NCBI GenBank assembly: GCA_030673585.1
Contig: DAOVIU010000089.1
Span: 1 to 6,021 of the forward strand
From: Pseudomonadota bacterium
Lineage (GTDB): Bacteria; Desulfobacterota; BSN033; G020346125
Direction of reading: 5' to 3'
DNA length: 6,021 nt
This document shows, piece after piece, positions 1,463 to 5,685 of the stretch. A program made the position numbers and the translations under genes. The first letter of the stretch is position 1. Every line of letters begins with the position of its first letter. The notes beneath the pieces were generated by a model, which was given only the letters and a program-made list of their open reading frames with translations, searched no databases and was not told the origin of the DNA.

Positions 1463-2155
1463 ATGTTCCAAAGGCTGAGAGAAGACCTCCACACGGTCAT
1501 CGAAAGGGACCCGGCCGCCAAGAACCTTTTCGAGGTATTCCTCTGCTACCCCGGCCTCCATGCCATCTGGATGCATCGGATCGCTCATTTCTTTTACCGC
1601 CACCGATGGTACACCTTCGCCAGGTTCGTATCACATATCAGCCGGGCGCTAACGGGGATCGAGATCCATCCCGGGGCGACCATTGGCCGTCGCTTATTCA
1701 TCGACCATGGCATGGGGGTAGTGATCGGCGAGACGACCGAGATTGGAGACGATTGTCTCATCTATAAAGGGGTCGTGTTTGGCGGAACCACCCTGGAGAA
1801 GAAGAAACGCCATCCTACCCTGGGAAATCGCGTTGTGGTGGGTTCCAACAGCACTGTTCTCGGGGCTATTACCATAGGAGACGGGGCAAAAATTGGGTCG
1901 GGCTCAGTGGTTATAAAGGATGTCCCCCCTGGTGCCACGGTTGTCGGGGTACCGGGGAGGCTGGTTGAATCGGATATACGGAAAAGGGCCGCCATCGACT
2001 TCGAGCATGGAAACCTTCCCGACCCCCTATCGGATGTGATGAAATTGATGTTGCAACTCCACGAAAAACTGGAACACCGGGTCGAAAAGCTGGAAAAGAC
2101 ACATGAGGTGTCCAAGCAGCAACCCCAATTGAGACAATCCAGGCGGAGAAAGTGA
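1463..2155 (+). CDS. cysE: Serine O-acetyltransferase
   Basis: This cytosolic enzyme acetylates serine from acetyl-CoA to O-acetylserine, the first step of cysteine synthesis. An N-terminal helical domain (about residues 1-60, with '[17 protein letters not shown]') leads into a left-handed beta-helix of hexapeptide repeats (about 65-170). This contains [29 protein letters not shown] with the active-site His, the [13 protein letters not shown] loop and the end signature VVGVPGR. This is the short EpsC/CysE type. The C-terminus is extended by a charged helix (about 190-230, '[18 protein letters not shown]') that may form a coiled coil. It ends in RRRK, without the terminal Ile that docks into CysK in enteric CysE, so the classical cysteine synthase complex is unlikely by that route. 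The ATG at 1463 has only a weak GGAG 11 nt upstream; no better in-frame start is visible. The stop overlaps the start of the scaffold gene (TGATG), so the two are translationally coupled. Confidence 0.94.
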
Positions 2156-2580
2156 TGGAGTACCCACAATTCTTGATGGATCACTTCCAAAACCCGAGAA
2201 ATGTCGGGGAGATCGCGGATGCCGATGGGACGGGCATCGTGAAGAACGCAACGTGTGGCGACATCATGCAAATGTCCATAAAGGTGGAAAAGGACGTTAT
2301 CGTGGATGCGAGGTTCAAGACCTTCGGATGCGGCGCCGCCATTGCAACCAGCTCCATCATCACCGAAAGGATAAAGGGAAAGGGTGTTGAGCAAGCCCTC
2401 AGGATTTCGGATGAAACGGCCAAGGAGATCATGAGCCAATTACCTCAGGAGAAGTTCCCCTGCTTTACCCTGGCTGCCAATGCCCTGAAGTTGGCCGTGG
2501 ATGAGTATCGCTGCAGTAAAGGGGAAACCCATACAAAGGGGGGAATAAGCTCCGAGGAGTTGGAAAAAGCCCTTTCTTAA
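2155..2580 (+). CDS. IscU/NifU-like Fe-S cluster assembly scaffold
   Basis: A 141-residue protein of the IscU/NifU N-terminal family, which holds nascent Fe-S clusters using sulfur from a cysteine desulfurase. It begins [18 protein letters not shown], a typical opening. It keeps the three ligand cysteines: Cys34 with Asp36 in ATCGD, Cys59 in FGCGAAIA, and Cys103 in KFPCFTLA. Two features differ from standard IscU. The residue before the third Cys is Pro102, not His. The LPPVK chaperone-binding motif reads LPQEK. An extra Cys120 occurs in a short tail. The ATG at 2155 overlaps the cysE stop and has GGAG 6 nt upstream; a GTG at 2152 is less likely. No desulfurase gene is next to it; the partner must be elsewhere. 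Its linkage to cysE suggests a role tied to cysteine and sulfur supply. The gene symbol is left open because IscU, SufU and NifU subtypes cannot be separated safely here. Confidence 0.9.
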   Translation: MEYPQFLMDHFQNPRNVGEIADADGTGIVKNATCGDIMQMSIKVEKDVIVDARFKTFGCGAAIATSSIITERIKGKGVEQALRISDETAKEIMSQLPQEKFPCFTLAANALKLAVDEYRCSKGETHTKGGISSEELEKALS

Positions 2581-2645: not shown

Positions 2646-3764
2646 ATGAGAAGAATGGTATTGTTGATCCTCATGTTCTTTCTGTTGGCCCTTTACAGAT
2701 CTGCGGAAACTGGGGAATTTACGCTCCTCTATTCCAATGATACGGGCGGGGTAATTGACCCGTGTCCCACCTGAGGAAATAAGACTGTAGGAGGGTTGGC
2801 CCGGCGGGCCACCGTTATCACGAATCTCAAAAAGGAAGGAAAAGAGCTCCTCATTCTCGACGCGGGCAATAGTCTCTTTGAGGAGAAGGGTTCCCCTTCT
2901 TCAAGGGATAGGGAGAAGGCCAGATTAATTGCAACGGCTTACCAACGGATGGGATATCAAGCCGTCAACGTTGGATCGAATGACCTTTCGGCTGGCATCG
3001 AATTCCTAAGGGAGTTGCAGAGGGGGACTCATTTACCCCTTTTGTCTGCCAACCTCCTCCAGAAAAAGGGAGGAAAACCGGTCTTCAAAACCCATATGGT
3101 GTTCGATGTAGGTGGTATAAGAGTTGGCTTGTTGAGCCTAACCTCCGATATCCGCCACCATGAAGGCGAAACCCCCCAGGGGTTTTTCATCTCCAATCCC
3201 ATAGCGGCGGCGAAAAAGGTGGCGGCCAAGCTTGAGAGGGATTGTGAGATTATCGTGGCCCTGAGTAACCTGGGCTCTTTTAAGGAATATACCAAGCTGG
3301 TTCAAGGGGTAAAGGGGATTCACTTCATCTTTGGGAGCGGAGGTAAGGGGTCCCACCATCAAACCATTCAGTCCGATAGCGGTTGGAAGGCATTGCTCTT
3401 CAAGACTTACGAGAGGGGACAGTACGTGGGGAGGGTCGACCTAAACGTAGTAAAGGGGGGCCATGATTTCGTTGACCTCAGTCGCAAGGCCCACATGGAG
3501 AAACAAATCGAGAGCATGGAAAGGCAATTGGAATCCTACCGAAGGGGAACGGGAAGCGCTAAATCCATTCCCGAGGATAAGAGGGAGGAGTCCATCAAGA
3601 GGTTGGAGGGTTTCAAGAAGAGGACGGAGGCGCGATTGGAGGAACTGGAGAAGGACTCCCGGAGAAAGAGCACCTTCATCAATACCCCCATACGCCTCGA
3701 CGATAAGGTAACGGGGGATCCCGAGATAAGGGAATTGGTAGATCGGTTCGAGAAAGGCTCATGA
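2646..3764 (+). CDS. Exported selenoprotein, UshA/5'-nucleotidase-like fold with a Cys-Pro-Thr-Sec site
   Basis: 372 residues, counting Sec43 encoded by the in-frame UGA at 2772-2774. Residues 1-20 are a signal peptide (Arg2, Arg3, then VLLILMFFLLAL), so the protein is probably periplasmic. Next comes TLLYSNDTGG (26-35), then DPCPT-Sec-GN (38-45) and GGLARRATVI (49-58), the usual opening of UshA-like metallophosphatases of this type. The frame is continuous across the UGA and the protein similarity lies on both sides of it. The expected metal-site motifs are altered: ND.HG is NDTGG, DAGD is DAGN (72-75), GNHE is GSND (110-113), LSHLG is LSNLG (206-210), and GH.H is GSGGKGSHH (230-238). Phosphatase activity is therefore doubtful and the CxxU pair is the likely functional centre. 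A charged coiled-coil region spans about 284-340, followed by a short conserved-looking tail (STFINTPIRLDD). The ATG has a good ribosome binding site. The stop overlaps the rhodanese start (ATGA). The redox role is inference; the substrate is unknown. Confidence 0.9.
2772..2774 (+). other. Selenocysteine codon (in-frame UGA, Sec43)
   Basis: The TGA lies in the frame of the ATG at 2646 (codon 43) and of the 329 sense codons that follow. It makes the motif Cys40-Pro-Thr-Sec43, a CxxC-type redox pair with the second Cys replaced. The reading assumes that the host has SelA, SelB, SelD and tRNA-Sec, none of which are in the window. Confidence 0.9.
2794..2813 (+). promoter_or_regulatory. Bacterial SECIS element
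   Basis: The hairpin GGUUGGCCCGGCGGGCCACC starts 19 nt after the UGA. G2794-G2795-U2796 pair with A2811-C2812-C2813; U2797 is bulged; G2798-C2802 pair with G2806-C2810; the loop is GGC. The E. coli fdhF SECIS upper stem (GGUUGCAGGUCUGCACC) has the same GGU/ACC base, the same bulged U and a loop starting with GG, which are the features recognised by SelB. The stem here is two base pairs longer and the apical loop lies 28 nt after the UGA, further than in fdhF. The element is entirely inside the coding region, as is usual in bacteria. Confidence 0.87.
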
Positions 3765-4291
3765 GCGGACTGGCTACCCTATCCCCAATGAAATCAATGG
3801 CTGTAAAGGCGAGGATTTCCATCTTCCAACAGGTTATCATCATTCTTCTTTTTTCCCTTGGAATGGGATTAGTGGTCAATACGCTCCGATTGAATCCCCT
3901 CCCCCTGATTGGGGATTGGTCCCACGGGTCTCTCCGGCTAAGGGGGGAAACGGATATCCCCATTATTTCCCTGGAGGATGCCACGGTAAAGTTCTTATCC
4001 GGCGAAGCCCTTTTCCTGGACGCTCGTTCCAGGGCGGACTACCAATCTGGGCACATCAAGGGGGCCTTAAATCTACCCGTCCACAAGGGGGGGTTCGGCG
4101 AAATGCTTCAGGCGTTCTCGCTGAAAATTAATCGCGGAAGGGAACTGATCGTCTATTGCGACGGCATTGGCTGTTCCTTAAGCCCTGAACTCGCCTCCGT
4201 ACTAGAAGGCCTAGGGTACAGGGATCTTAAGATCTTGATCAATGGGTGGACCGAGTGGACGATGGCGGGAATGCCCTTCGAGGTGGAGTAG
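3761..4291 (+). CDS. Membrane-anchored rhodanese-like sulfurtransferase
   Basis: A 176-residue protein with a single rhodanese domain (about residues 66-174). It moves sulfur (or possibly selenium) through a persulfide on its active-site cysteine. Domain marks are LFLDARSRADYQSGHIKGALNLP (84-106, written here across two motifs: the DAR substrate-side motif at 87-89 and GHIKGALNLP at 97-106), the active-site loop Cys133 in VYCDGIGCS, and a closing INGWTEW..AGMP. A second cysteine, Cys138, lies inside the loop. Residues 23-39 form one transmembrane helix, with Lys11, Lys16 and Arg18 before it, so by the positive-inside rule the catalytic domain should face the periplasm. The start overlaps the selenoprotein stop by ATGA, which implies translational coupling; an ATG at 3788 has no ribosome binding site. 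Partnership with the selenoprotein upstream and the MauE-like protein downstream is inferred from this tight arrangement. Confidence 0.9.
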   Translation: MSGLATLSPMKSMAVKARISIFQQVIIILLFSLGMGLVVNTLRLNPLPLIGDWSHGSLRLRGETDIPIISLEDATVKFLSGEALFLDARSRADYQSGHIKGALNLPVHKGGFGEMLQAFSLKINRGRELIVYCDGIGCSLSPELASVLEGLGYRDLKILINGWTEWTMAGMPFEVE

Positions 4292-4308: not shown

Positions 4309-4782
4309 ATGCGGTCCATCCTCAGCCTGTACGCCACCCCTTATACTTCTGTGATATTCCGCTGGGCCGTCGGCCTGATCTTCATCTATGCGAGTACTGA
4401 TAAACTCCTCCATCCCTCGGCCTTTGCCGTCGCTGTGTATAACTATAAGCTCCTTCCCGGAAACTTCATCAACCTGGTGGCGATAACCCTTCCGTGGCTG
4501 GAGCTGGTGTGTGGAATCCTCCTCATCATCGGTTTGTTTCCCCGGGCAGCAGCCCTTATCCTGAGCATGCTCCTCATCCTCTTCTTCTCCGCTCTCTCCC
4601 TAAACCTCTACCGGGGCATCGATATCAGCTGTGGCTGTTTTGCCCTGAGCACGACTGCGGATAAGATCGGCATTTCCTATATGGCCAGAGACCTTCTGGT
4701 CTTGGCGATGAGCCTTCAAATCCTGTTCTTCGATGGAAACCTCGTGAGCATAGAAGGTCTTTTTCCCGCCAGGTACCGGTAG
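4309..4782 (+). CDS. MauE/DoxX-like inner-membrane protein
   Basis: A 157-residue protein with four predicted membrane helices, near residues 12-28, 47-67, 72-90 and 120-139. The family marks are FRWAVGLIFIYASTDKLLHP at the first helix, LPWLELVCGILLIIGL at the second, and an ISCGCF motif in the loop before the last helix. This fits the MauE branch of the DoxX-like family. MauE is needed for disulfide-bonded methylamine dehydrogenase, and DoxX relatives act in thiol or thiosulfate chemistry, so a membrane redox role is reasonable but unproven here. The ATG at 4309 has GAGG 6 nt upstream. An in-frame GTG at 4297 with GGAG 8 nt upstream would add four residues and cannot be excluded. The gene follows the rhodanese by 17 nt, in the same operon. 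No mau structural genes are present, so methylamine use is not implied. Confidence 0.87.
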   Translation: MRSILSLYATPYTSVIFRWAVGLIFIYASTDKLLHPSAFAVAVYNYKLLPGNFINLVAITLPWLELVCGILLIIGLFPRAAALILSMLLILFFSALSLNLYRGIDISCGCFALSTTADKIGISYMARDLLVLAMSLQILFFDGNLVSIEGLFPARYR

Positions 4783-4872: not shown

Positions 4873-5685
4873 ATGCAAGATATATTGCAGAAATTGACGG
4901 ATATCGAAAAAGAGGGACGGCAAGCGGCCTTGGCCATCGTGGTCCATACAAAGGGGTCAACCCCGAGGAAAGCGGGGGCCAAGATGATCGTCATGGAGGA
5001 TGGGAGTACCTTTGGAACCCTGGGTGGTGGCGGTCTGGAGAAAAAGGTCATCGAGGAATCCCTTGAAGCCCTGAAGGGGGGGAAAACGAAGCTGACATCC
5101 TTTACCCTCGAAGGTGACTTGGACATGATGTGTGGGGGTGAGATTGACGTCTATATCGAGCCCATCAACCAGCCGGCGAAGCTCATCATATTCGGTGCTG
5201 GTCACCTTACGAGGGCTCTGGCCCCCTTGATGCGGTCGATGGGCTTTCGGGTGACCGTGGTAGAGGATAATCCCGAAGTGCTAGGAGATGATCGCCTCGC
5301 GGATATCGAAGAGGTTAAGTCGGAGGATATGGGGTCTTACGCGGAAAAGCTTCCCCCCGAGAGCAACGCATACATTGTAATCGTTACCCGGGGATTCTCA
5401 AAGGACAAGGCCGTCCTCGAACACACCATCGGAAAGGATTTTCGCTATGTGGGGATGGTCGGGAGCGGGAAAAAAATTGGGACCATCAAGGAAGACCTGA
5501 TTTCGAAGGGAATTGAGAGGGAATGTTTCTCCAAACTCCACGCCCCCATAGGCCTGGATATTGGGGCGGAGACGCCCGAGGAGATTGCCCTCAGCATTGC
5601 GGCCGAAATTCTCTCTGTCAAAAAAGGCAAGCCCCCGTCTCGGACGCGTGGAGCTTCCTCAAGGAGCGTGGAAAAGGGTGAGTAG
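4873..5685 (+). CDS. XdhC/CoxI-family molybdenum hydroxylase maturation protein
   Basis: A 270-residue cytosolic protein. XdhC-type proteins bind molybdenum cofactor and promote its sulfuration before insertion into xanthine dehydrogenase-like enzymes. The N-terminal domain (about 1-100) has HTKGSTPRKAGAKM (25-38), GTLGGGGLE (48-56) and MCGGEIDVYIEPI (86-98) with Cys87, the usual conserved Cys of the family. The C-terminal Rossmann domain (about 102-250) begins KLIIFGAGHLTRAL (103-116), with the GxGxxxxxL fingerprint, and ends with HAPIGLDIGAETPEEIALSIAAEI (two adjacent signature motifs, 223-245). A charged tail follows. The start has AGGGG 6 nt upstream. The gene lies 90 bp after the MauE-like gene, so it may have its own promoter. 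No hydroxylase subunits are in the window. XdhC-like proteins also occur with selenium-dependent molybdenum hydroxylases, which would fit a selenium-using host, but nothing here proves that link. Confidence 0.92.
   Translation: MQDILQKLTDIEKEGRQAALAIVVHTKGSTPRKAGAKMIVMEDGSTFGTLGGGGLEKKVIEESLEALKGGKTKLTSFTLEGDLDMMCGGEIDVYIEPINQPAKLIIFGAGHLTRALAPLMRSMGFRVTVVEDNPEVLGDDRLADIEEVKSEDMGSYAEKLPPESNAYIVIVTRGFSKDKAVLEHTIGKDFRYVGMVGSGKKIGTIKEDLISKGIERECFSKLHAPIGLDIGAETPEEIALSIAAEILSVKKGKPPSRTRGASSRSVEKGE

Follow-up and report, generated by a model that had tools for sequence, protein, structure and literature searches.

A conserved in-frame UGA and a predicted Cys-Pro-Thr-Sec motif in a putatively exported UshA-like protein truncated by annotation

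The read-through gene and its relatives

The window analyzed here is a stretch of 6,021 nt of contig DAOVIU010000089.1, to whose forward strand all positions refer, and its main subject is a gene encoding an UshA-like protein with a predicted selenocysteine (Sec). An initial annotation of this DNA had described a frame stopped by a UGA and then open for 329 codons. Its coordinates and count proved correct: the frame is opened by ATG 2646, contains a lone in-frame TGA at 2772-2774 (codon 43) and continues over 329 sense codons to the terminal TGA at 3762-3764. The ribosome binding site and signal peptide described at the same time were also found, the first as AAGGGAG ending 6 nt before the ATG, the second as a hydrophobic leader predicted from the sequence. 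The features of the gene are the following.

2646..3764, forward strand: complete gene read through the UGA (372 residues, of which residue 43 is the predicted Sec); the UGA and the frame are kept in four further genomes
2646..2705, forward strand: predicted signal peptide MRRMVLLILMFFLLALYRSA, based on sequence and on an N-terminal helix in the predicted model
2763..2774, forward strand: predicted redox motif Cys40-Pro-Thr-Sec43, with a CxxC counterpart in a probable sister clade
2772..2774, forward strand: in-frame UGA, predicted Sec codon, at a conserved position in 5/5 genes
2791..2816, forward strand: candidate selenocysteine insertion sequence (SECIS) hairpin, with TGGCCC/GGGCCA as its inner stem and GGC (2803-2805) as its apical loop
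2796..3764, forward strand: truncated open reading frame (ORF) of 322 residues, as in routine annotation (ORF list and database relatives)

The helix of the predicted model covers residues 2-17, with low confidence at 16-18. Because codon 1 is not ATG in two relatives, either Met1 or Met4 could be the translation start. Judged by its sequence, the 372-residue product is predicted to be exported. The expectation that routine annotation would start the gene at or after position 2796 and lose the leader was borne out by the ORF list, which places the start at TTG 2796, and by the 58 closest database relatives (P0002-P0059), 57 of which start downstream of the UGA column and contain neither the leader nor the motif. 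The only one spanning this column, P0059, has a W there, which is indistinguishable from a UGA translated as Trp by a gene caller.

We looked for relatives by scanning genomes and by searching at class level, and recovered the same gene in four further draft genomes (G001, G019, G020, and G021); identity was 66-76%, and each copy has a single in-frame TGA, placed at this codon. The five genes, hereafter window-type, align over 372 codons without any gap. The ratio of nonsynonymous to synonymous substitution rates (dN/dS; 10 pairs) ranged from 0.13 to 0.51 upstream of the UGA and from 0.28 to 0.40 downstream, and purifying selection thus acts on both halves of the gene. The recurrence of the UGA at this codon in the four other genomes, the lack of indels and the low dN/dS on both sides show that it is not there by chance. 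A conserved in-frame UGA with coding sequence on either side, as expected of a bacterial selenoprotein, was thus present in 5/5 genes. No relative was found in a scan of viral contigs.

Among 30 related loci, the motif read DPCPTU in four window-type ones, CxxC in six, PCGU in nine and PCP(T/S/G)U in nine (U denoting Sec); the remaining two were L022, with PSGR, and L031, an ordinary nucleotidase match. All five window-type proteins have CPTU, and all six CxxC rows have a Cys at the UGA column with the same spacing. Homologues with Cys or Sec at position 43, which the initial annotation had proposed to look for, therefore exist (CxxC in 6/6, UGA in 5/5). We built trees of 65 and 72 rows, both with several long branches. 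The window-type rows formed one clade, with supports in the Shimodaira-Hasegawa-like approximate likelihood ratio test of 99 (65 rows) and 100 (72 rows), and the CxxC rows formed another (support 100). The two clades were sister groups with supports of 85 and 92, respectively, a relationship that is tentative because both branches are long. Departures from these motifs were observed as well: L022 has lost both Cys and Sec in an otherwise retained protein, L071 keeps the Sec with Ser in place of Cys (ADSGU), and three UshA-like matches (G199:C21, G338:C9, and G073:C6) have two or three in-frame TGA codons.

Selenocysteine machinery and SECIS hairpins

The Sec machinery was scored in 23 genomes of the class and in 14 control genomes. 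In the class, selB, selA, and selD exceeded the cut-off in 22, 22, and 18 genomes, against 2, 1, and 2 control genomes in the same searches. All four relatives carrying a window-type gene have selA and selB (the selB of G021 being a partial one of 252 residues). The selD gene is full-length and itself contains a TGA in G001, G020, and G021, and is a fragment (92 bits) in G019. In the search for tRNA-Sec, 117 candidates per genome were scored; a full gene was present in 16 of the 23 class genomes, and 5 of the 14 control genomes were over the cut-off. A 47-bit match in G009 was rejected, being a tRNA-Ser according to ARAGORN, so that the count for the class is 16 full genes plus a truncated one in G019 (L100, 1490-1562), whose 5' part is lost to a run of N. 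The latter is some 12 kb away from the UshA-like gene, was missed by ARAGORN and scored under the Rfam cut-off; a pattern search of nine genomes found it, with matches also in two positive-control genomes. ARAGORN detected no tRNA-Sec near selA, selB or the UshA-like gene of G019 (L090-L092). The absence of tRNA-Sec elsewhere means little because these are draft genomes. In addition, three genomes with a first set already present have a second selB adjoining a second tRNA-Sec match of 51.7-56.7 bits (G012:C188, G013:C36, and G017:C152).

The initial annotation had read Cys-Pro-Thr-Sec as the motif of a selenoprotein, a reading supported by the Cys homologues, by the UGA in 5/5 genes and by the sel genes in the genomes of the relatives. 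It had also pointed to a SECIS-like hairpin. The limits given for bacterial SECIS in the review PMC13188914 are a loop of 3-9 nt, a G in the first two loop positions, a distance of 16-37 nt from the UGA and at most -7.5 kcal/mol. The window hairpin, with its GGC 28 nt after the UGA and -15.0 kcal/mol, is inside the loop, spacing and energy limits of this model as stated there. The same stem occurs at the same position in five members of the NCBIfam family NF049981 (L107-L111; see below): window-type genes form 5.8 of its 6 pairs (4.12 when recoded) and the NF049981 members 6.0 (recoded, 4.65). In 31 other UGA relatives, a hairpin is located at 18 or 21 nt, with 6.23 of 7 pairs versus 3.97 in recoded sequences and p ≤ 0.05 in 21 of them, whereas seven Cys genes had 3.14 pairs at this position versus 3.13. 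In a broader folding test, which left out L022 (Cys and Sec lost) and L031 (the nucleotidase match), the mean z was -1.03 for 36 UGA genes and +0.54 for the seven Cys genes; the window scored -1.32 (p 0.106). A shifted SECIS common to the window-type genes and NF049981 is plausible. A natural test of SelB requirements is offered by G020 and G021, where a paralogue with the strong 18-nt hairpin (L035 and L034, respectively) occurs alongside a window-type gene that lacks this hairpin (L012 and L011).

Several results weigh against decoding of the UGA as Sec in the window gene. The hairpin fits the model, but a model hairpin at or below -7.5 kcal/mol also arises in 68% of synonymous recodings, and one at least as stable as the native hairpin in 8% (p 0.080); taken alone, it is weak evidence for Sec. 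None of the five window-type genes has the 18/21-nt hairpin (3.8 pairs versus 3.6 recoded), and the 28-nt stem reached p 0.05 in no single gene (window-type, 0.066-0.113). In a free search for model hairpins, which took in 10 of the 31 other UGA genes, p ≤ 0.05 was obtained for 6 of these 10, 1/5 window-type genes (L013, 0.030; L010-L012, 0.115-0.175), 0/5 NF049981 members, 1/2 genes near NF049981 and 0/7 Cys genes, and the best hairpin of L010 and L011 was a different one, at 17 nt. Synonymous sites at the hairpin were not unusually conserved among the five window-type genes, and Rfam gave no SECIS match in the window (two matches were far under the gathering scores). Finally, the machinery data come from the genomes of relatives, not from that of the window, and no tRNA-Sec was present among the portion of candidates scored in G001, G020, and G021.

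Predicted fold and genomic neighborhood

The structure-prediction alignment comprised the window protein and 71 of 120 listed relatives, 307 having passed the threshold. The predicted fold matches UshA and SoxB in the 5'-nucleotidase N-terminal domain as far as about UshA residue 357, and there is no C-terminal substrate domain. The window protein keeps one of the eight metal and catalytic residues of UshA, so that the metal ligands and catalytic His are for the most part gone. With 7/8 of these residues lost, the Cys-x-x-Sec redox center probably takes over from hydrolysis.

The neighboring genes are the following.

1463..2155, forward strand: cysE, serine O-acetyltransferase (TIGR01172 over cut-off)
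2152..2580, forward strand: NifU/IscU-type Fe-S scaffold protein (PF01592)
3761..4291, forward strand: rhodanese-domain protein with a hydrophobic N-terminal stretch (PF00581), overlapping the stop of the UshA-like gene by 4 nt
4309..4782, forward strand: MauE/DoxX-family membrane protein with a Cys-Gly-Cys motif (PF07291)
4873..5685, forward strand: XdhC/CoxI-family protein (PF13478, PF02625)

Within the limits of their contigs, the relatives have the same gene order, cysE, nifU, UshA-like gene, rhodanese, mauE, xdhC, lgt: the contig of G001 stops inside mauE, that of G020 starts at the end of cysE, and the cysE and nifU matches of G019 are only partial. The rhodanese gene adjoins the UshA-like gene in three of the four relatives, and MauE is present in three of four. 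In G021 (L094), between the UshA-like gene and xdhC, the rhodanese gene is internally deleted and no mauE match was found; we thus dropped the idea of an obligatory partnership. The membrane protein with its CGC motif and the rhodanese are weakly indicated as candidate partners.

UshA-like genes of the UGA type are also linked to selA, at 1.8-2.5 kb, in 12 of the 22 selA-bearing class genomes (G003, G004, G005, G006, G007, G010, G012, G013, G014, G016, G017, and G022; e.g., L078 and L106). All eight linked genes that were read have CxxU (L021, L025, L028-L030, L036, L038, and L039), and none of the four window-type genes of the relatives is linked to selA. The count of 12 genomes used the 44 strongest of 56 places, leaving out 12 weak ones (≤51.3 bits). 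One of the latter, G008:C173:4-399 (27 bits), is a fragment at a contig end, situated about 2.4 kb away from selA, and could represent a 13th linked gene. In G003 (L078), the UshA-like gene and selA are separated by a B12-binding radical-SAM gene on the same strand, in an operon-like arrangement. The CxxC form is located between two SBF-family transporter genes in L101 (G009:C91), with a UGA paralogue a few kb away, and near an ArsR-type regulator in L104 (G018:C121). These selA, radical-SAM, transporter and ArsR contexts hint at functions but do not count as evidence on the window gene. In the sampled phylum, 127 of 395 genomes have an UshA-like match at E 1e-20, most listed matches containing one in-frame TGA.

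Interpretation and comparison with known systems

By far the best reading is Sec, as which UGA 2772-2774 is very likely translated, and we consider the window gene a well-supported selenoprotein gene truncated by annotation. Our estimate is a probability of roughly 0.78 that it encodes an exported Sec protein with a Cys-Pro-Thr-Sec redox center on an UshA/SoxB-like fold, as modeled, that has lost 7/8 metal and catalytic residues. SelB with Sec-tRNA would decode the UGA, helped by the hairpin just downstream. Once exported, the protein would alternate between a reduced selenol/thiol pair and a selenenyl sulfide, exchanging electrons with a sulfur or selenium compound instead of catalyzing the lost hydrolysis.

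More speculatively, the window protein could be an undescribed branch, with its SECIS about 10 nt further downstream, of a superfamily of exported selenoproteins in which the 5'-nucleotidase metal site was dismantled and a Cys/Sec pair installed, the branches handling Se or S outside the cytoplasm and one of them, in the selA operon, supplying Sec synthesis. We regard this broader scenario as doubtful. The change from a phosphatase fold to a probable redox selenoenzyme, with one branch beside selA, is a lead on Se or S handling outside the cytoplasm. The genes are common in the sampled phylum, yet their database entries mostly miss the leader and the motif.

Four other explanations were considered. 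The selenoprotein could still be a hydrolase, either a SoxB-like thiohydrolase or a nucleotidase, with Cys/Sec as structural residues or metal ligands. The predicted fold matches SoxB and UshA, the His of NDTH is retained in two window-type relatives, and the selA-linked CxxU type retains 3/8 residues in most rows. The window protein is left with a single one of the eight, however, it scored 46.3 bits with the SoxB model TIGR04486 (cut-off 550), and Pfam detected no domain in it at E 0.001; we thus find a hydrolase improbable.

The UGA could also be a true stop, separating a short leader peptide from a 322-residue protein translated from TTG 2796, where the database entries begin; the missing SECIS at the position where the relatives have a stronger one would also be accounted for. 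This is very unlikely, given that selection acts on both halves without an indel in 372 codons and that the CxxC relatives run continuously across the UGA point. Furthermore, the NDT..DPC segment of a single continuous predicted fold is in the leader, as is the predicted signal peptide, and AGGAGGG directly abuts TTG 2796, leaving no spacing for a ribosome site.

Suppression of the UGA, for instance its reading as Trp, is less probable still. The W of P0059 would fit, but it may merely reflect the code used by the gene caller, and no other row read has Trp at this column. The same gene is terminated by UGA, which makes a wholesale code reassignment unlikely, and the relatives have Sec-machinery genes. 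A sequencing error or a decaying gene, conceivable in view of the draft assemblies of the relatives, is already contradicted by the same UGA in five separate contigs and by dN/dS well under 1, and its probability is negligible.

The initial annotation, favoring the selenoprotein that we also prefer, named no selenoprotein family on this fold and allowed for an earlier description. UshA-like selenoproteins had indeed been published by 2008, but window-type proteins fall under the cut-offs of both available models. An UshA-like COG0737 selenoprotein with CxU was described from 76 sequences in 2008 (PMC2398784), UshA-like selenoproteins also appear in PMC9312934, and the NCBIfam models NF041198 (CxU) and NF049981 (CxxU) cover UshA-like (seleno)proteins (PMC13188914). 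Term searches gave no mention of UshA in PMC8318568 and PMC12013277, and no further paper on UshA-like selenoproteins was found in the open-licence literature (subscription papers were not covered).

The best-scoring model for the window protein was NF041198, with 241.8 bits (four relatives, 224.9-242.9; cut-off 275). The two share the fold region, a hydrophobic leader and a Cys and Sec just ahead of GG(L/V/I)(A)(R/K)(R/K), as in COG0737. However, NF041198 has CxU (PCGU), a motif that window-type proteins do not have, their own being CxxU, and its genes have a strong hairpin at 18 nt. The window protein covers only positions 3-375 of the 519-position profile, whereas L018, a member over the cut-off, covers 5-518. 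With NF049981, the window protein scored 117 bits and the four relatives 107.5-122.6, all under the cut-off of 140, which is exceeded in 5 of the 395 genomes of the phylum. Window-type proteins have the CxxU motif in common with L107-L111 (PCPTU/PCPSU), together with a similar stretch from the UGA to GG(L/M)ARR and the stem at 28 nt, but NF049981 forms a separate clade in the tree. The selA-adjacent CxxU proteins belong to the same fold family, with the motif PCP(T/S/G)U, and the three that were scored (L021, L025, and L036) are likewise under both NCBIfam cut-offs; they differ from the window type by a hairpin at 18-21 nt and, in the two loci examined, by a radical-SAM gene and selA as neighbors instead of cysE and nifU. 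UshA-like selenoproteins are thus already known, and the window-type proteins are a clade of their own below the cut-offs of both models. From the UshA 5'-nucleotidase and the SoxB thiosulfohydrolase, whose N-terminal domain fold it is predicted to share, the window protein differs in having neither the metal site nor the C-terminal substrate domain.
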